Position numbers and translations under genes: made by a program
Part shown: one piece after another, positions 43,306 to 52,436 of the stretch
Layout of the letters: each line of letters begins with the position of its first letter
Numbering within the stretch: the stretch's first letter is position 1
Notes under the pieces: generated by a model
Told to the model about the DNA's origin: nothing
Seen by the model: only the letters and a program-made list of their open reading frames with translations
Database searches by the model: none
Assembly (NCBI RefSeq): GCF_000812185.1
Contig: NZ_CP007026.1
Span: forward strand, 811,107-875,106
DNA: 64,000 nt
Reading direction: 5' to 3'
Origin: Candidatus Nitrosopelagicus brevis
GTDB lineage: Archaea > Thermoproteota > Nitrososphaeria > Nitrososphaerales > Nitrosopumilaceae

Positions 43306-44481
43306 ATGAAACAAAAATCAATACTTGCATTTTCTGGCGGACTTGATACATCAGTCGTTGTCAAATACATGCAAGACATGCACAATATGGATGTAATTAC
43401 AGTAACAGTTGACGTAGGTCAAGGAGACGATAATAACAAAATTGCAAAAAAAGCAAAAAAACTTGGAGTGAAAAAACATTACAACATTGATGCAAAGAAA
43501 GAATTTGTTACAGAGTATATTTTCCCAGCAATAAAAGCTAATGCACTTTATCAAAAGAAATATTGTCTTGCAACAGCACTTGCAAGACCATTAATTGCAC
43601 ATAAAGTACTCGAGATTGCAAAAAAAGAAAAAGTTTCATCATTAGCACATGGTTGTTCTGGAAAAGGTAATGACCAAGTCCGTTTTGATAATACATTAAG
43701 GTCTGGTTCAAACTTACCAATAATAGCACCTATTCGAGATATGAATTTAGATCGTGAAACAGAATTAAAATTTGCAAATAAACATGGAATAGAGATTGAT
43801 ACTGTTGCAAAAAAATTTAGTATTGATCAAAATTTGTGGGGGAGGGCAATTGAAGGAGGAGTATTAGAAAATCCATTTAATGAACCTCCAGATGACGCAT
43901 TCATTTGGATTAAAACAAAAAATTTGCCTGAAAAACCTTCCTATTTGAAAATTAAATTTGTTAAAGGAGTACCGACAGAAGTTGATGGTAAGAAATTACC
44001 TCCTGTAAAATTAATTGAATATATCAATAAAAAAGCAGGAAATAATGGTGTTGGAATTGTTGATCATATTGAAGATAGGGTGGTCGGAATAAAATCACGT
44101 GAAGTATACGAAACACCAGCCGCAATTTGTCTGATAGAAGCACATTCCGATCTTGAAAAAATGGTACATACAAAACATGAAACAAAGTTCAAAACATTAG
44201 TTGATGACGAATGGGCATGGATGGTTTATTCGGGTTTGTGGGATGACCCATTAAGAAAAGAATTAGATCAATTTATCGAACAATCTCAAAAACGTGTTAC
44301 TGGTACTGTAAAGCTAAAACTTCACAAAGGAAATGTCAGGGTAGTCGGAAGAGAATCAAAATATTCACTGTATAGTCACGACATAGCCACTTATGGAAAG
44401 GATTCCACGTTTGATCAGAAATTAGCCAAAGGTTTCGTTGAATTGTGGGGAATGCAGTCAACAGAAGCTAATAAATTCTAG
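43306..44481 (+). CDS. argG: argininosuccinate synthase
   Basis: Joins citrulline and aspartate with ATP in arginine synthesis. The PP-loop is AFSGGLDTSVV at residues 8-18. TVDVGQGDD, HGCSGKGNDQVRFD, and WGRAIEGGVLENP are conserved ArgG motifs, and the C-terminal helix for tetramerisation is present at 391 aa. It heads a run of genes for LysW-linked ornithine/lysine synthesis and fits beside the ArgX-like ligase, tying this half of the locus to arginine. Confidence 0.96.
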   Translation: MKQKSILAFSGGLDTSVVVKYMQDMHNMDVITVTVDVGQGDDNNKIAKKAKKLGVKKHYNIDAKKEFVTEYIFPAIKANALYQKKYCLATALARPLIAHKVLEIAKKEKVSSLAHGCSGKGNDQVRFDNTLRSGSNLPIIAPIRDMNLDRETELKFANKHGIEIDTVAKKFSIDQNLWGRAIEGGVLENPFNEPPDDAFIWIKTKNLPEKPSYLKIKFVKGVPTEVDGKKLPPVKLIEYINKKAGNNGVGIVDHIEDRVVGIKSREVYETPAAICLIEAHSDLEKMVHTKHETKFKTLVDDEWAWMVYSGLWDDPLRKELDQFIEQSQKRVTGTVKLKLHKGNVRVVGRESKYSLYSHDIATYGKDSTFDQKLAKGFVELWGMQSTEANKF

Positions 44482-44501: not shown

Positions 44502-44669
44502 ATGAATTGTCCAGAATGTGACGCAAATATGAATATCCCAGAGGATGCCGCTGTAGGCGAAATAGTTTCTTGTGGAGATTGTGGTGCAGACTACGAGATC
44601 GCAAAGAAAGAAGGTTCTGATATTGAGTTAAAAGAAGCTGAAACAGTAGGCGAAGACTGGGGAGAGTAA
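44502..44669 (+). CDS. lysW: LysW amino-group carrier protein 1 (EDWGE end)
   Basis: A 55-aa acidic carrier, too short for routine gene lists. Its zinc ribbon is CPEC near residue 3 and CGDC near 24. The C-terminus EDWGE ends in the glutamate whose side-chain carboxyl is joined to the amino group of glutamate or alpha-aminoadipate, which protects it during the pathway. The stop codon is directly followed by the TTG start of the ligase gene. It lies next to argG, so it probably serves ornithine/arginine synthesis first. Confidence 0.93.
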   Translation: MNCPECDANMNIPEDAAVGEIVSCGDCGADYEIAKKEGSDIELKEAETVGEDWGE

Positions 44670-45524
44670 TTGCAAAAAATTTGCATAGTATTTGATAGAT
44701 TAAGAACTGAGGAAAAACTACTGCAGAAAAAGGCAGAAGAGCTTGGTTATGAAACATCAATGATAGATGCAAAGATTACAAGTTTCGATACAGACAGTAA
44801 ACCAGAAAATTTTGATTTTGGTGATGTTGTTTTAGAACGTTGTGTGAGTTATTACCGTGGACTACATTTTACAGCTTGTTTAGAATTTTTGGATATTCCA
44901 GTAATTAACAAATTTGATGTTGCCAATACATGTGGAAATAAAATGATAACATCCATGTTATTAAAAAAAAATAATATTCCTACACCAAAAACATATTTCT
45001 CTTTTTCAGCAGAAACAGCATTAGAAAATTTTGAAAATATAGGATACCCACTTGTAATAAAACCAATAATTGGAAGTTGGGGAAGAAGTGTAATGCCAAT
45101 TAAAGACAAAGATACTGCCGAAGCTGTAATTGAAAATAGACAAGTAACCGATGGACCACAAGATAGAATTTATTATTTGCAAGAAATGATTGACCGACCA
45201 CCACGAGATATACGAGTCATTACAGTTGGAGATCAGGCTGTATCTGCAATGTATAGAAAATCATCAGGAGGTTTTAAAACAAACATAGCATTAGGAGCAG
45301 ACCCAGAGCTTTGTCAAATAACAAAAGAGATGGAGGATTTGTGTGAAAAGACATCAAAGGCAGTGGGTGGAGGAATATTAGGAATCGACTTGATGGAAGA
45401 CAAAGAAAAAGGCTTGGTTGTTCACGAGGTCAACAATACTGTAGAGTTTAAGGGGTTAGTCAAAGTCTCAGAAAAAAACATTCCAAAAGAGATGATCGAC
45501 TATGCGGTTCGTAATATCAAGTGA
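44670..45524 (+). CDS. argX: LysW ligase, ArgX-like (first copy)
   Basis: ATP-grasp ligase of the RimK/LysX family, 284 aa, attaching an amino acid to LysW. LDIPVINKFDVANTCGNK, VIKPIIGSWGRSVMPI and the LGIDLMEDKEKGLVVHEVNN metal-binding region are visible. Around the substrate pocket it has SGGFKTNIALGA, unlike the WxTNTxxGG of lysine-type LysX, so glutamate specificity (ArgX) is inferred, supported by neighbouring argG. The TTG start follows the lysW stop without a gap. Confidence 0.85.
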   Translation: MQKICIVFDRLRTEEKLLQKKAEELGYETSMIDAKITSFDTDSKPENFDFGDVVLERCVSYYRGLHFTACLEFLDIPVINKFDVANTCGNKMITSMLLKKNNIPTPKTYFSFSAETALENFENIGYPLVIKPIIGSWGRSVMPIKDKDTAEAVIENRQVTDGPQDRIYYLQEMIDRPPRDIRVITVGDQAVSAMYRKSSGGFKTNIALGADPELCQITKEMEDLCEKTSKAVGGGILGIDLMEDKEKGLVVHEVNNTVEFKGLVKVSEKNIPKEMIDYAVRNIK

Positions 45525-45567: not shown

Positions 45568-46614
45568 ATGAAAGTAGGAATTGTCGGTGCATCCGGTTAT
45601 GTAGGAGGAGAAGTTCTCAGACTATTACTTAGCCACCCTAAAGTTGAGGTTTCAATGGTTACATCAAGACAACACGTAGGAAAATTTCTGCATAGGGCAC
45701 AACCTAGCCTCAGAGGCTTTACCGATTTGAAATTTTCAGAATTAGATTATGAAAAAATGAGTGACTCTTGTGACTTAGTTTTCACAGCAGTGCCACACGG
45801 AACTGCAACTGATATTGTCAAAGCATTGTATGACAGAGGAATGAAGATTATTGATTTGAGTGCAGACTATCGTTTGCACAACCCAGAAGATTACGGAAAA
45901 TGGTACGGATGGGAACATCCACATCCAGACTATTTGGAAAAATCTACATTTGGCGTTCCAGAATTACACAGAGAAGAGATTAAAAAATCACAATTAGTTT
46001 CTTGCCCAGGTTGTATGGCAGTTACATCAATGCTTGCATTAAATCCATTAATCAAAAATGATTTGATTGATACTGATCACATTATTGTTGATTCAAAGAT
46101 AGGTTCGTCTGGTGCAGGTGCAGGTGCAGGTACATCACATGCAATGCGTGCAGGAGTCATACGACCATACAAACCAGCAAAACACAGACACACTGGAGAG
46201 ATTGAACAAGAACTAAGTCAAACTGCTGGTAAGAAGATTAAGGTAGCAATGAGTCCACATGCAGTGGATGTGGTAAGAGGAATTTTATGTACAAATCATA
46301 CATTCCTCAAGAAAGATATTGATGAAAAAGAACTTTGGAAGATTTATAGATCAGAATATAGTGAAGAACGATTTATCAGACTGATTAGAGATAAAGAAGG
46401 TCTACATAAATTCCCAGACCCAAAGTTTTTGGTTGGTTCAAACTTCTGTGATATTGGATTTGACCTAGATAGAGACAACAATAGGTTAATTGCATTATCG
46501 GCATCGGACAACCTAATGAAGGGTGCAGCAGGTTCTGCAATTCAAAACATGAATGTCATGTCAGGATTTGATGAGTTCGAAGGAATTATGTATTCCCCTC
46601 TAACACCTGTATAA
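45568..46614 (+). CDS. lysY: LysW-linked acyl-phosphate reductase (ArgC/LysY)
   Basis: NADPH-dependent reductase that turns the LysW-bound gamma-glutamyl or aminoadipyl phosphate into the semialdehyde. GIVGASGYVGGEVLRLL is the dinucleotide fold at residues 3-19; the catalytic Cys sits in SCPGCMAVTSM near 149, and the His in GTSHAMRAG region is near 210. At 348 aa it is full length. Only one copy is in the window, so it presumably serves both arginine and lysine branches, as in Sulfolobus. Confidence 0.92.
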   Translation: MKVGIVGASGYVGGEVLRLLLSHPKVEVSMVTSRQHVGKFLHRAQPSLRGFTDLKFSELDYEKMSDSCDLVFTAVPHGTATDIVKALYDRGMKIIDLSADYRLHNPEDYGKWYGWEHPHPDYLEKSTFGVPELHREEIKKSQLVSCPGCMAVTSMLALNPLIKNDLIDTDHIIVDSKIGSSGAGAGAGTSHAMRAGVIRPYKPAKHRHTGEIEQELSQTAGKKIKVAMSPHAVDVVRGILCTNHTFLKKDIDEKELWKIYRSEYSEERFIRLIRDKEGLHKFPDPKFLVGSNFCDIGFDLDRDNNRLIALSASDNLMKGAAGSAIQNMNVMSGFDEFEGIMYSPLTPV

Positions 46615-46617
46615 TAG

Positions 46618-47418
46618 ATGATTACAATAAAAATTGGCGGCAGTGTTGTCGATAACTTACATCCATCAACAATAGCTGATATCAAAAAAGTTGCACAAAA
46701 AGAGGGAGTGATACTGGTTCACGGAGGAGGTAAAGAAGTAACCAAAGTTACAGAACAGTTAGGTAAAGAACCAAAATTTGTTGTGTCTCCAAGTGGAATA
46801 AAAAGTCGATATACCGATAAAGAAACTTCAGAGATTTTTACAATGGTAATGTCAGGAAGAATAAACAAGACCATTGTTCAGATGCTACAAAAAAACGGAA
46901 TAAATGCAGTTGGTCTTTCAGGAATGGATGGAAAAACAATAGAAGCAAATCGGAAAAAGAAACTGATGATTATGAACGAAAAAGGAAGAAAACAGATGAT
47001 TGATGGAGGATATACAGGTAAGATTTCAAATGTAAACTCAGAATTGATCAAAACAATCATGGAAAAAGGCTATACGCCGGTCATCTCTCCAATAGCGATT
47101 AGCGAAGAATCAGAATTTCTTAATGTAGATGGAGATAGGGCAGCAGCAAATGTTGCAGGCCATGTGAATTCGGATAAGGTGTTATTTATTACAAATGTAG
47201 ACGGATTACTCATGGAAGACAAGTTGGTGGAAAAATTATCCCTTGAGAAGGCAAAAGAAATAATGCCAAAGATTGGATTTGGAATGGAGAAAAAAATACT
47301 TGCTGCAACAGAAGCACTTGAGATGGGAGTATCAGAAGCACTAATTGCAAATGGACAAAGAGAAAATCCAATTTCATCAGCAATAGAACATAACAAATGC
47401 ACGGTGATTTCTAAATGA
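46618..47418 (+). CDS. lysZ: LysW-linked amino acid kinase (ArgB/LysZ)
   Basis: Kinase of the carbamate/acetylglutamate family, phosphorylating the side-chain carboxyl of LysW-bound glutamate or aminoadipate. KIGGSVVDN opens the protein, LVHGGGKEVTKV near 32-43 binds substrate and ATP, and VDGDRAAANVAG is the nucleotide region near 176. It is 266 aa. Three bases separate it from lysY and it overlaps lysJ by four bases. Confidence 0.92.
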   Translation: MITIKIGGSVVDNLHPSTIADIKKVAQKEGVILVHGGGKEVTKVTEQLGKEPKFVVSPSGIKSRYTDKETSEIFTMVMSGRINKTIVQMLQKNGINAVGLSGMDGKTIEANRKKKLMIMNEKGRKQMIDGGYTGKISNVNSELIKTIMEKGYTPVISPIAISEESEFLNVDGDRAAANVAGHVNSDKVLFITNVDGLLMEDKLVEKLSLEKAKEIMPKIGFGMEKKILAATEALEMGVSEALIANGQRENPISSAIEHNKCTVISK

Positions 47419-48596
47419 GTGAAGATAAATTCCTTGGGAATCTCTACCAAAGGTTTCCTGTAACTGTTGATAGAGGAATAGGTGCACATGTTTGGGACAC
47501 GAATAACAAAGAATACATTGACTGTATGGGAGGATATGGAGTAGCATTACTTGGACATCAAAATGAAAGAGTGACAAACGCACTAAAATCACAATTAGAA
47601 AAGATCATTACAGTTCATAGTTCATTGTATAACAAAACACGAGAAGAGTTTCTAGAAAATCTTTTCAAGGTAGCACCAAAGAACCTATCACAAGTCCATC
47701 TAAACAACAGCGGTGCAGAAGCAATTGAAGCAGCAATGAAATTTGCACGCAAGTTTACAGGTAAAACTGAGATGGTAGCCATGAATGGTTCATACCATGG
47801 AAAGTCCATGGGCGCATTATCAATCACATTTAATCCAAAGTACAGAAAATCTTTCAAGCCTCTTATCGAGAAAGTATCATTTTCACCATTTGGAGATATT
47901 GAAAAACTTCGTGAAACAGTAAATGATCAAACATCATTTGTAATCTTAGAACCAATACAAGGAGAGAGTGGAATACATGTAGCTCCTGATGGATTTTTGC
48001 AAGATGTCAGAAAATTATGTGATGAAAAAGGAATTTTATTAATTTATGATGAAATTCAGGCAGGATTAGGACGCACTGGAAAAATGTGGGCACATGAACA
48101 TTGGGATACACCACCAGACATACTATGTTTGGCAAAAGGAATTGCAGGCGGAGTTCCAATGGGTGCAACATTAGTCAAGCCAGAGATTTTAGATTGTATT
48201 TCAAAAGGAGAACATTCATCCACATTTGGAGGAAATCCATTGTCATGCGCAGCAGGTCTTGCAACAATGCAGGCATTAACACAAGATAAGCTTGTAGAAA
48301 ATTCTGCAAATATGGGAAGATTATTTAGACAAGGATTAGATAAATTGAAAGAAAAACATCCAGTGATTAGAGAGGTTCGAGGTAAAGGACTCATGATAGG
48401 TGTAGAATTAAAATTCGAAGTGAGAGATATACTAATGGAAGGTATTGAGAAAGGATTACTCTTACTATATTCAGGAAGAAATATTCTAAGATTACTTCCT
48501 CCACTAGTAATAACTGAGGCAGATGTAACAAAATCTTTAGAAATACTAGATGAATTATTTACTAATGAGGAGAAAAGAAAAAATGCTCAAGGATAA
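47415..48596 (+). CDS. lysJ: LysW-linked aminotransferase (ArgD/LysJ)
   Basis: Class III PLP aminotransferase, 393 aa, converting the LysW-bound semialdehyde to ornithine or lysine. NNSGAEAIEAAMKFAR is the PLP phosphate region near 95, LLIYDEIQAGLGRTG carries the Asp that binds the pyridine nitrogen near 213, and the Lys forming the Schiff base lies in LAKGIAGGVPMG near 240. It overlaps lysZ by four bases and the Lrp-type regulator by 14 bases. Confidence 0.93.
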   Translation: MSEDKFLGNLYQRFPVTVDRGIGAHVWDTNNKEYIDCMGGYGVALLGHQNERVTNALKSQLEKIITVHSSLYNKTREEFLENLFKVAPKNLSQVHLNNSGAEAIEAAMKFARKFTGKTEMVAMNGSYHGKSMGALSITFNPKYRKSFKPLIEKVSFSPFGDIEKLRETVNDQTSFVILEPIQGESGIHVAPDGFLQDVRKLCDEKGILLIYDEIQAGLGRTGKMWAHEHWDTPPDILCLAKGIAGGVPMGATLVKPEILDCISKGEHSSTFGGNPLSCAAGLATMQALTQDKLVENSANMGRLFRQGLDKLKEKHPVIREVRGKGLMIGVELKFEVRDILMEGIEKGLLLLYSGRNILRLLPPLVITEADVTKSLEILDELFTNEEKRKNAQG

Positions 48597-49002
48597 GATA
48601 GATGAAAAAATTCTAGAATACTTAAGAAATGATTCAAGAGAATCTTTTGTAGAAATTGGTAAAAAATTAAAGCTTTCAGAATCTGCTGTTCGTAGAAGAG
48701 TAAAGAATTTGGTTGACAGTAAGGTTATTGAAAGATTTACTATCGAGATGGGTGAAATGAATTCTACAAGTGCAATTGTTTTGATATCTGTCGATTCAAC
48801 TACAGATACATCAAAAGTATCATCAAGATTAACAAAATTGAACGCCGTCAAAACAGTTTATGAAATAACAGGACAGTATGATATTAGTGTCATAATTAAA
48901 GCACCAAGTATCACCGAAATTAATGCAGCAATAGATGAATTAAGAAAGATACCAGGCGTTATTGATACAAACACTGTAATTATTTTAAGAACAATCAGAT
49001 AA
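48583..49002 (+). CDS. Lrp/AsnC-family regulator (LysM-like)
   Basis: A 139-aa feast/famine regulator. The N-terminal HTH reads KIDEKILEYLRNDSRESF, then LKLSESAVRRRVKNLVD as recognition part; the C-terminal RAM ligand domain runs from about residue 65 (AIVLISVDSTTDTSKV) to VIDTNTVIILRTI. The frame opens 33 bases earlier, but ATG 48583 after GAGGAG is the natural start. Being encoded at the end of the Arg/Lys run, it may sense lysine or arginine like Sulfolobus LysM; this is inference. Confidence 0.88.
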   Translation: MLKDKIDEKILEYLRNDSRESFVEIGKKLKLSESAVRRRVKNLVDSKVIERFTIEMGEMNSTSAIVLISVDSTTDTSKVSSRLTKLNAVKTVYEITGQYDISVIIKAPSITEINAAIDELRKIPGVIDTNTVIILRTIR

Positions 49003-49117: not shown

Positions 49118-50299
49118 ATGACTGATCCGAATCACTATGCAGACATGTATAACGCATATGAAAAGACTCCAAAAAAAATTCATATATTGGATTCAACACT
49201 ACGGGAAGGTGAACAACACCCAGGTGTTTCATTCACAAACAAACAACGAATTCAGATAGCATGGATGTTAGATTATTTTGGAGTTGATCAAATTGAAATT
49301 TCACCAGTGGTATCACCTGATCATAGAGAAGCTACAAAAACAATAATCCAACAGGGATTAAGAGCAGATATTGTTTCGCACGGAAGAGCATTACGAGAAG
49401 ATATTGATACATCATTATCATGTGATGCAAAATGGGTAGCAGCGTATCTAGGCATATCAGATATCCATCTAAAAGATAAATTAAGAATTACAAAAGATGA
49501 AGCATTAGAACGTGCAGTAGATACAGTAACTTATGCAAAAGATCATGGATTAAAAATTAGATTTACAGTAGAAGATGGTAGTAGAGCAGAACCAGAATTT
49601 TTGCTAAAGTTATGCAGAGCAATTGAAGAAGCAGGAGTGGATAGAATTAGTCTGCCAGACACTGTTGGAATAATGAGACCAATTGGAATGTATAATTTCG
49701 TTAAAAAAATTCGTAGTGAAATTAAGACACCACTTGATGTCCACGTACACAATGATATTGGGTTTGCATTGGCAAACGCATTTTCAGCATGTGATGCAGG
49801 AGTTGATCAAATTCATACAACGATTGACGGTATCGGAGAAAGAACAGGAATACCAGCATTAGCTGAAGTAGCAGTAGCCTTGACATATCTTTTCAAATCT
49901 CCAAATGATTTTAGACTAGATATGTTAGCAGATCTTTCAAGACTCATAGAACAATATACTACAATTAAGCCATATGATTCAAAACCAATTGTAGGATCAT
50001 CAGCCTATAAGCACAAGGCAGGAACACACTTGGCGGCAATACTCAATAATCCAGCAGCCTATGAACCAATACCACCAAGAGTAGTCGGCAATAGAAGAAA
50101 GATAGTATTTGGGGAATTGGCAGGCAAAACAGGTGCTAGTTATCTTATGTCATTATTAGGAATAAGCAAGGATCCTGAAACTGCAAAAAGTGTTGCAGCC
50201 GGGCTAAAAAATCTTAGAATGGGAGATGTTTTAGAAATCCCATTAGAGGATCGCCTTGAACGTAAAATAATTAAGGATGAAAAAAAAGGAGAAAAATAG
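49118..50299 (+). CDS. homocitrate synthase-like enzyme
   Basis: Condenses acetyl-CoA with 2-oxoglutarate to enter the aminoadipate route to lysine. The 393-aa DRE-TIM protein begins with the signature DSTLREGEQHPGVSF (residues 26-40) and has HVHNDIGFALANAFSACDAG near 210-229 with the metal-binding HxH. The C-terminal part is shorter than in isopropylmalate synthase with its leucine domain. Placement in front of LysW2, LysX and the LysW hydrolase argues for homocitrate synthase over isopropylmalate or citramalate synthase. Confidence 0.85.
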   Translation: MTDPNHYADMYNAYEKTPKKIHILDSTLREGEQHPGVSFTNKQRIQIAWMLDYFGVDQIEISPVVSPDHREATKTIIQQGLRADIVSHGRALREDIDTSLSCDAKWVAAYLGISDIHLKDKLRITKDEALERAVDTVTYAKDHGLKIRFTVEDGSRAEPEFLLKLCRAIEEAGVDRISLPDTVGIMRPIGMYNFVKKIRSEIKTPLDVHVHNDIGFALANAFSACDAGVDQIHTTIDGIGERTGIPALAEVAVALTYLFKSPNDFRLDMLADLSRLIEQYTTIKPYDSKPIVGSSAYKHKAGTHLAAILNNPAAYEPIPPRVVGNRRKIVFGELAGKTGASYLMSLLGISKDPETAKSVAAGLKNLRMGDVLEIPLEDRLERKIIKDEKKGEK

Positions 50300-50305
50300 A
50301 TAAAA

Positions 50306-50473
50306 ATGACAAATTGCCCTGAATGTGATGCAAATATGAAGATCCCTGACGATGCAGTAGAAGGCGAAATTGTCACCTGTCCAGAATGCGGCGCAAGTTT
50401 TGAACTTGCTAAAGCATCCGAAGGTTTTGAGTTAAAACCAGCTCAAACAGTCGGAGAGGATTGGGGACAGTGA
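50306..50473 (+). CDS. lysW: LysW amino-group carrier protein 2 (EDWGQ end)
   Basis: A second 55-aa LysW, omitted by size cut-offs. Zinc ribbon cysteines are CPEC near residue 4 and CPEC near 24, and the protein is clearly homologous to the first copy (NCPECDANMKIPDDAV). The last residues read EDWGQ: codon CAG then TGA, so the terminal Glu that normally carries the substrate is Gln. The GTG start of the next gene overlaps the stop as GTGA. By position it serves the lysine branch. How a Gln end is loaded is unclear. Confidence 0.92.
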   Translation: MTNCPECDANMKIPDDAVEGEIVTCPECGASFELAKASEGFELKPAQTVGEDWGQ

Positions 50474-51315
50474 CCAGCAAGATTTCAATCCTTTACGATA
50501 CAATCCGTCTTGAAGAAAAATTACTAATCGAATCTGCAAAGAAAAATGATATCGCAATAGACATGGTAGATTGTAAAAAATTGTTTTTGGATTTGAATGA
50601 AAAAAATTGCTTGGACGGACCAGTATTACAAAGATGTGTTAGCTATTACAGGAATTTACATTCGACTGCAGCTCTTGAAGGTCAGGGTGCCAAAGTAGTG
50701 AATTGTTTGAATACAGGAATTTTTGCGGGAAATAAATTATTTACACATATGTTATTACAAAAGGCAGGAGTTCCAACACCAGATGCAACAGTTGCATTTT
50801 CAAAGGATTCTGCATTGGAAGCATTAGAAAAACATGGATTTCCAAAAATTATTAAACCAACAGTAGGGAGTTGGGGAAGAATGGTTTCTAAATTAAATGA
50901 CATGGATGCAGCTGAAGGAATTATAGAAGGAAGAGAAGCAATGTATCCGATTCACCACATACATTTTCTTGAAGAGTTTGTCCAACGTCCACCACGAGAT
51001 ATTCGTGTGATTGTGATAGGAGACAATGTTGCAGCTGGAATATACAGAAATTCAGGAGATGGGAATTGGAAAACAAACACACACCTAGGAGGTTCAGCAG
51101 AAACCTGTGAAATTACTAAGGAACTAGAAGACATATGCATTAAGGCAAAAGATGCAGTGTTTGGTGATATTGTAGGTATTGATCTAATGGAAAGTAATGA
51201 GAAAGGATTGGTAGTACACGAAATAAACAATACTACAGAATTTAGAAATGTTGTTAGAGTTACAGGCGTAGATATTCCAAAATTAATGTTAGAACATGTC
51301 AAGGGGTTTGCATAA
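50470..51315 (+). CDS. lysX: LysW ligase, LysX-like (second copy)
   Basis: ATP-grasp ligase of 281 aa, the alpha-aminoadipate-LysW ligase by context. LLQKAGVPTPDATVAF, IIKPTVGSWGRMVSKL and VVHEINNTTEFRNVVRVTGVDIP (in parts INNTTEFRN and VTGVDIP) match LysX. The pocket motif GNWKTNTHLGG resembles Thermus LysX and differs from the first copy. The frame opens nine bases earlier at a TTG, but GTG 50470, overlapping the lysW2 stop, is preferred. Its TAA shares a base with the ATG of the hydrolase gene. Confidence 0.87.
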   Translation: MTSKISILYDTIRLEEKLLIESAKKNDIAIDMVDCKKLFLDLNEKNCLDGPVLQRCVSYYRNLHSTAALEGQGAKVVNCLNTGIFAGNKLFTHMLLQKAGVPTPDATVAFSKDSALEALEKHGFPKIIKPTVGSWGRMVSKLNDMDAAEGIIEGREAMYPIHHIHFLEEFVQRPPRDIRVIVIGDNVAAGIYRNSGDGNWKTNTHLGGSAETCEITKELEDICIKAKDAVFGDIVGIDLMESNEKGLVVHEINNTTEFRNVVRVTGVDIPKLMLEHVKGFA

Positions 51316-52436
51316 TGGATGATCATTTAGAAACTTCCAGATATGCGATTAAAACTTTGGAAAAAGCATTAAGAATCTATACTCCATCATTAAGCGAAAA
51401 GGCATTAGCTGATTTTCTTGCAGATAGATGTGACGATTTAGGATTCAGAGATATTCATCAAGATGAAGTTGGAAATCTGATTGCAACAAAAGGTTCAGGC
51501 GAACCAAAGATAATGCTATGTGGACATATGGATGTCGTTCCTGGAAAAATTAAGGTAAGAATAGAAGGTGACATGTTGCATGGCAGAGGCGCTTCAGATG
51601 CAAAAGCCCCACTAATTGCAATGTTGTTTGCAGCTGCAAGTATAGGAGAAAATGAGGGAACAATAACATTTGTTGGCGCAGTAGATGAGGAAGGTAATGC
51701 AACAGGAATAAAAAATTTAGTGAAGAATACACCTGATGTTGATTATGCAGTTTTTGGAGAACCAAGTAGTATTCAAAAAGTTACAATTGCATACAAAGGT
51801 CGATTAGCAATTAATCTAAGAGTGAATGTGAAGGATAGTGCACATGCAAGTGCTCCATGGTTAGCAAAAAATGCAATAGAGGAAATATCATCAGTTGCAA
51901 TAGAATTAAAAAATGAGTTAGAAAGCGGCCAGGAAAATAAGACTAAAGGAATGATGCTTACTGCAACCCTTACAGAGATCCGTGGTGGTACTAGTCACAA
52001 TGTAACACCAAAAGAATGTGTTGCAACCTTAGATATCAGAATCCCAGTAGATATGAATTGTAATGATATTGAGGAAAAAATAACTAAAATAATTAATGAA
52101 ATGTCAATAAAGAGAGAAATTGAAGTTTTGTATTCAGTGATAGATGAAACAGAACCATTTGAAGCTGCACATAATTCACCATTAGTTAGAGCATTGACAT
52201 TATCAATTTTGGATGTAGAAAAGAAAAGACCAATGTTGATTAGAAAAACAGGTACAGGAGACATGAATGTAATTGGAAATCAACTAAAGATTCCAGTAAT
52301 TACATATGGTCCAGGAGATCCTCACGAAGCTCATACAATTGATGAAAAAGTTTCGATTGAAGAGTTTGTTAAAGGAATAGAAATTCTGAAAAAATCACTA
52401 CACCATTTAAAAAGACTGCATGATAGAACGAAATAA
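51315..52436 (+). CDS. lysK: LysW-lysine/ornithine hydrolase, M20 family (LysK/ArgE)
   Basis: Zinc peptidase that frees lysine or ornithine from LysW. The 373-aa M20 fold shows MLCGHMDVVPG near 62-72 with the first zinc His and Asp, RGASDAKAPL near 92, VGAVDEEGNATG with the catalytic Glu pair near 119, and a final zinc His in PGDPHEAHTIDE near 348. It overlaps the ligase by one base and the DphB gene by one base, so the lysine unit continues into diphthamide synthesis. Confidence 0.9.
   Translation: MDDHLETSRYAIKTLEKALRIYTPSLSEKALADFLADRCDDLGFRDIHQDEVGNLIATKGSGEPKIMLCGHMDVVPGKIKVRIEGDMLHGRGASDAKAPLIAMLFAAASIGENEGTITFVGAVDEEGNATGIKNLVKNTPDVDYAVFGEPSSIQKVTIAYKGRLAINLRVNVKDSAHASAPWLAKNAIEEISSVAIELKNELESGQENKTKGMMLTATLTEIRGGTSHNVTPKECVATLDIRIPVDMNCNDIEEKITKIINEMSIKREIEVLYSVIDETEPFEAAHNSPLVRALTLSILDVEKKRPMLIRKTGTGDMNVIGNQLKIPVITYGPGDPHEAHTIDEKVSIEEFVKGIEILKKSLHHLKRLHDRTK

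Follow-up and report, generated by a model that had tools for sequence, protein, structure and literature searches.

A lysine/arginine carrier protein, LysW, encoded with a terminal glutamine in ammonia-oxidizing archaea

The LysW/ArgW amino-group carrier proteins (NF041070, TIGR01206, PF21344) of Thermus, Sulfolobus, Thermococcus, and haloarchaea are zinc-ribbon proteins of about 55 amino acids with an acidic EDWG tail, encoded next to the ligase LysX and together with LysY, LysZ, LysJ, and LysK. The last residue is Glu, and its γ-carboxyl carries the substrate, which is loaded by LysX and finally released by LysK. In Sulfolobus, one common Glu-ended carrier serves both the Glu ligase ArgX and the α-aminoadipate (AAA) ligase LysX (PMC10433800). 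A comparable use of a terminal Glu is found in the unrelated protein Pup, which tags proteins for degradation via the γ-carboxyl of its last residue. Pup is encoded with Gln in some actinobacteria and with Glu in other species, and the Gln form is deamidated by Dop, the same enzyme that removes Pup from its targets (PMC8599861). Dop has a glutamine-synthetase fold and is unrelated to LysK, an M20 metallo-hydrolase.

The locus examined here lies in a 64,000-nucleotide stretch (the window) of the closed 1,232,128-base genome of Candidatus Nitrosopelagicus brevis, in which a single cluster on the forward strand holds the genes of both the arginine and lysine branches, with the full set contained within 9.2 kb and the same order seen in dozens of genomes. 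The arginine half begins with argininosuccinate synthase (ASS; 43306-44481, not scanned against family models), a conserved neighbor in other genomes, followed by LysW1 (44502-44669) and LysX1 (44670-45524), an ArgX-like ligase with the G-type motif NTVEFKG. Next are a LysY/ArgC-type semialdehyde dehydrogenase (45568-46614), a LysZ/ArgB-type kinase (46618-47418), and a LysJ/ArgD-type aminotransferase (47415-48596), each present once in the cluster, as is LysK, so that sharing between the two branches is inferred, as in Sulfolobus. An Lrp/AsnC-family regulator (48550-49002) precedes a homocitrate-synthase-like gene (HCS; 49118-50299), which matches PF00682 and PF22617 but scores 369 bits against TIGR02146, below its cut-off of 413.6. 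The lysine half continues with LysW2 (50306-50473), LysX2 (50470-51315), and LysK (51315-52436). LysX2 is an ATP-grasp ligase with the N-type motif NTTEFRN, as in AAA-specific LysX (motif meaning from PMC10433800), a score of 312.7 bits against the TIGR02144 cut-off of 275.6, and solved relatives 3vpd, 1uc8, 3vpb, and 5k2m.

LysW2, of 55 residues, translates to MTNCPECDANMKIPDDAVEGEIVTCPECGASFELAKASEGFELKPAQTVGEDWGQ, with a last codon of CAG (50468-50470) and a TGA stop (50471-50473), whereas its paralogue LysW1 ends EDWGE (GAG TAA). The first-pass annotation had reported a Gln end on the carrier in the lysine half and a Glu end on the other copy, and this observation is correct. Both proteins pass NF041070 (90.0 bits for LysW2 and 86.4 for LysW1, cut-off 75) and PF21344 (49.3 bits for LysW2, cut-off 27), and they are the only two LysW copies in the genome. 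LysW2 thus has the intact zinc-ribbon cysteines (CPEC...CPEC), the EDWG tail at the extreme C-terminus, and the genetic linkage of a LysW, but the Glu that carries the substrate is not encoded. It is classified here, therefore, as a Gln-ended LysW homologue rather than a canonical LysW; attachment of substrate to its last residue was not measured. The GTG start of LysX2 overlaps the LysW2 stop (GTGA), but this overlap does not account for the Gln codon, because GAGTGA would give the same overlap and Gln also occurs elsewhere as CAA TAA or CAA TAG without it.

A private mutation or sequencing error, which the annotation had named as the finding that would overturn it, is ruled out by recurrence of the Gln end in more than 160 genomes and with both Gln codons, CAG and CAA. 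A scan of 260 genomes from the order of the window for the tail pattern (tables counted by hand) finds Gln-ended copies in 162 of 169 genomes of three ammonia-oxidizing families, namely 90 of 92 in the family of the window (inferred to be Nitrosopumilaceae), 66 of 70 in a second (inferred to be Nitrososphaeraceae), and 6 of 7 in a third (inferred to be Nitrosocaldaceae), and in 0 of 91 genomes of the other families. Named hits from the public collection are Nitrosopumilus, Nitrosopelagicus, Nitrosotalea, Nitrosotenuis, Nitrosarchaeum, Cenarchaeum, Nitrososphaera, Nitrosocosmicus, Nitrosopolaris, and Nitrosocaldus. Elsewhere in the phylum, one real case was listed, genome G109, where an isolated Gln-ended LysW (EVEGEDWGQ; locus L202, 9565-9738) lies in an arginine-type cluster. 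This is an independent case, outside the order and in a genome without AmoA, although its family had no other genome available for comparison. A pattern hit in genome G032 (contig C35, 44093) is not a LysW, and bacterial hits at loci L060, L073, and L125 are chance matches reading into TGG. The archaeal AmoA family was found in nearly all Gln-bearing genomes tested (not in the fragmented G577 nor in G109) and also in genomes G431 and G398, which have Glu on both copies. The Gln end is therefore nearly confined to ammonia oxidizers but not universal in them.

The arrangement of Glu and Gln ends (ARRANGEMENTS) varies among these lineages. Most of the family of the window has LysW1 Glu and LysW2 Gln, with both states present in 86 of 92 genomes, a pattern that might suggest that the Gln copy is a regulator or scaffold while the Glu copy does the loading. 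Two Nitrososphaeraceae genera (codes g191 and g195, the latter including Nitrosopolaris) have the reverse, LysW1 Gln and LysW2 Glu, read in six genomes, which rejects a tie between Gln and the lysine branch. Nitrososphaera and allies (genus codes g19, g16, g200, and g201) and genomes G082 and G575 of genus g8 have Gln on both. Five Nitrososphaera genomes (G459, G386, G461, G452, and G463) hold two true LysW copies each, all Gln-ended. Nitrosocosmicus (g15; Nitrosocosmicus-type loci L183, L184, and L207) has lost LysW1 but kept both ligases, so that one carrier seems to serve two enzymes; its closed genomes G322, G350, and G209 and three drafts have exactly one LysW, Gln-ended, and in the closed genomes it lies in an intact operon with LysX1, LysY, LysZ, LysJ, HCS, LysX2, and LysK. 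Genus g198 (loci L206, L283, L284, and L292) appears to have lost both LysW1 and LysX1, with only one LysX found in a whole-genome search of G489, yet keeps ASS, LysY, LysZ, LysJ, and LysW2-Gln with LysX2; LysX2 may be bifunctional here, or arginine is made otherwise. In g8, which includes a contig of a Cenarchaeum MAG (loci L196, L200, L294, and L295), LysW1 has moved away from LysX1, which sits next to ASS without it. A GC-rich 3.2-Mb relative in the Cenarchaeum genus code (G570; locus L194, 3700-4100) has GC-rich repeats before LysX2 where LysW2 should be, and only a Glu-ended LysW1 remains. By hand count, 27 of 39 Nitrososphaeraceae genomes at 90% completeness or better show no Glu-ended tail.

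Gln-only genomes keep the whole pathway. Nitrososphaera viennensis, taken here to be G459 (2,527,938 bases), grows in pure culture in artificial freshwater medium with ammonium as sole energy source and 0.1 mM pyruvate as peroxide scavenger (PMC11561398), so it should make its own lysine and arginine. A Gln-ended carrier is therefore functional in some form. A purely non-carrier role is contradicted by Nitrosocosmicus and Nitrososphaera, unless these species are auxotrophs, and by the swap of which paralogue ends in Gln, and is considered very unlikely.

PF21344 models the globular domain and not the tail, and so samples tails without bias. All 82 copies found with this model that could be read in ammonia-oxidizer genomes end EDWGQ (51) or EDWGE (31), and nothing else; the genomes were partly chosen for unusual counts, so the 51:31 ratio is not a natural frequency, and the absence of any third residue is the relevant result. 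Replacement of this Glu in a haloarchaeal ArgW (E54A) abolishes arginine synthesis (PMC10433800). The side chain matters, therefore, and the amide/acid pair is what is tolerated, favoring conversion of one into the other over a spectator side chain. These results weigh against attachment of the substrate to the α-carboxyl of the last residue, a reading that would explain why Glu and Gln interchange without changes in LysX and that has some appeal because LysX is a relative of RimK, a family named for α-L-glutamate ligases. It would also require the shared LysZ, LysY, LysJ, and LysK to change regiochemistry together, and it is considered unlikely, though not excluded.

The terminal residue has switched at least eight times, in both paralogues. 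On a tree of LysX2 plus LysK (132 rows), the LysW2 end needs at least five changes, and on a tree of LysY, LysZ, and LysJ, the LysW1 end needs at least two; a switch inside g8 (G082 and G575 against G577) adds one not on that tree. The trees were built with a quick method, so support is limited, and parsimony does not fix the direction of each change. The annotation had argued that a G-to-C change would explain the sequence but not its maintenance. Strong selection may not be needed, however, as five Q/E changes in 111 copies are not clearly rarer than four C/G changes at the third base of the preceding Gly codon in 58 C/G-bearing copies. Strong selection for Gln over Glu inside ammonia oxidizers is thus not supported, and no benefit of Gln is evident, given that ammonia oxidizers with two Glu carriers exist (G431, G398, G411, and G257). 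Outside the ammonia oxidizers, Glu is nearly invariant.

No LysX residue tracks the switch. Both ligases match the LysX equivalog, and the GSWGR motif that reads the EDWGE tail is intact in all 146 LysX2 and 87 of 88 LysX1 sequences checked; the LysX2 substrate motif follows NTTE[FY][KR]N. No LysX2 position separates Gln from Glu carriers, and the best LysX1 candidate, C58, fails because g8 keeps Cys with a Gln carrier. LysX2 of ammonia oxidizers does carry fixed differences from the Glu-only outgroup at positions 93, 168, 181, 206, and 264, with Ile181 for Phe, Leu206 where 20 of 21 related Glu-carrier archaea have Arg (Leu is also found in ArgX-type enzymes), and mostly His93 and Glu168 (the latter for Gln). 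The meaning of these substitutions is unknown, and the substrate preference of LysX2 may differ from that of canonical LysX. Glu-ended ammonia oxidizers (family code f67, G431, g191, and g195) carry the same Ile181 and Leu206, Glu-ended relatives share most of the differences, and Glu168 is absent in Gln-ended Nitrosocaldus, so they are not the switch. These comparisons bear on the possibility that LysX itself accepts Gln, via attack of the amide oxygen on ATP, as proposed for Dop and PupQ (PMC8599861), or a glutamine-synthetase-like transfer with ADP and phosphate, so that AAA or Glu replaces ammonia in one step. Such a mechanism needs no extra enzyme, and the fixed differences in LysX2 speak for it, but Glu-ended ammonia oxidizers share Ile181 and Leu206 and LysX1, which must also handle Gln carriers in Nitrososphaera, Nitrosocosmicus, and g8, shows no matching changes, and the reading is considered unlikely, although not excluded. 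Structure prediction was not used, because single-chain models could not show the LysW tail in LysX or LysK.

The explanation judged somewhat more likely than not is that the Gln-ended LysW is a working carrier made as a precursor, from which the side-chain amide is removed once after synthesis to give EDWGE, which LysX1 or LysX2 would then load on the γ-carboxyl as in Thermus and Sulfolobus. Because LysK ends each cycle by hydrolyzing the amide at that same γ-carbon, the carrier would return as the Glu form, and one slow deamidation per molecule would be enough. LysW-Gln is chemically LysW-γ-NH2 in place of LysW-γ-Lys, making LysK the first, though tentative, candidate for the deamidase, by the logic of Pup and Dop but with unrelated enzymes. 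The nearest solved structure to LysK is the [LysW]-lysine hydrolase 5xoy (E 1e-49). LysK, which releases Lys/Orn from LysW, lies next to LysX2 across Gln lineages, keeps its M20 metal-site motifs in 118 ammonia-oxidizer sequences, and is one of only two M20 proteins in the genome of the window. No deamidation has been observed, however, and LysK is also present in lineages that strictly keep Glu, so that an extra property specific to ammonia oxidizers must be assumed; substitutions in LysK fixed in ammonia oxidizers exist, also of unknown meaning. A dedicated, unidentified deamidase is a less likely version of the same explanation, suggested by the near confinement of Gln to ammonia oxidizers, as if an enabling factor arose there. 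No candidate gene sits with the cluster, where LysK is followed by a diphthine-synthase-like gene, a nucleotidyltransferase-like gene, and others, and no Pup-ligase/Dop homologue (PF03136) was found in the nine genomes searched. Insertion of Glu at the Gln codon by escape of Glu-tRNA(Gln) from GatDE is regarded as highly improbable. GatE is present in all seven genomes tested, so the mischarged intermediate should exist, but the Glu-only outgroup G334 has the same system, and the effect would be proteome-wide and give only a small fraction. Ammonia oxidizers also show a second GatB/GatE-like protein (about 470-520 amino acids) besides full-length GatE (genome G000, contig C1, 622472-623872 and 92987-94867), suggesting two tRNA-dependent amidotransferases.

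The analysis establishes directly that Gln-ended carriers are the rule in ammonia-oxidizing archaea, that some genomes have no other carrier, that the copies read end only in Glu or Gln, and that the state has switched repeatedly without a corresponding LysX residue, whereas the deamidation and the enzyme responsible are inferences. The interpretation in the first-pass annotation is partly supported. Its premise that Gln lacks a side-chain carboxyl is right and its options (deamidation, α-carboxyl use, a Gln-using ligase, or another role) are the sensible ones, but its placement of Gln in the lysine half does not generalize and another role cannot be the whole answer. A more radical alternative, that these archaea run lysine and arginine synthesis on Gln-ended carriers by chemistry outside the known LysW scheme, with LysX loading the amide directly and releasing ammonia or with the substrate on the α-carboxyl, is unlikely but not excluded. 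No paper among those searched, which did not include subscription journals, contains the string EDWGQ or discusses a Gln-ended LysW, although prior mention is not excluded. What differs from the described carriers is thus the encoded acceptor residue, in a protein that by homology is a LysW and that would work like one after, or despite, an extra step.

The terminal Glu is the mechanistic core of LysW carriers, and metabolic models of ammonia-oxidizing archaea, such as that of Nitrosopumilus maritimus SCM1 (PMC6038301), assume the standard LysW pathway. Most of these archaea encode at least one carrier with Gln in this position, and some encode no other kind, so that the cells must either convert the Gln to Glu or use chemistry not yet described for this pathway. 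The occurrence of Gln in a widespread group of archaea, sometimes exclusively, predicts a maturation step or new ligase chemistry in an essential pathway, and it would be a second, unrelated example of the logic of Pup, in which Gln is encoded and Glu is used.
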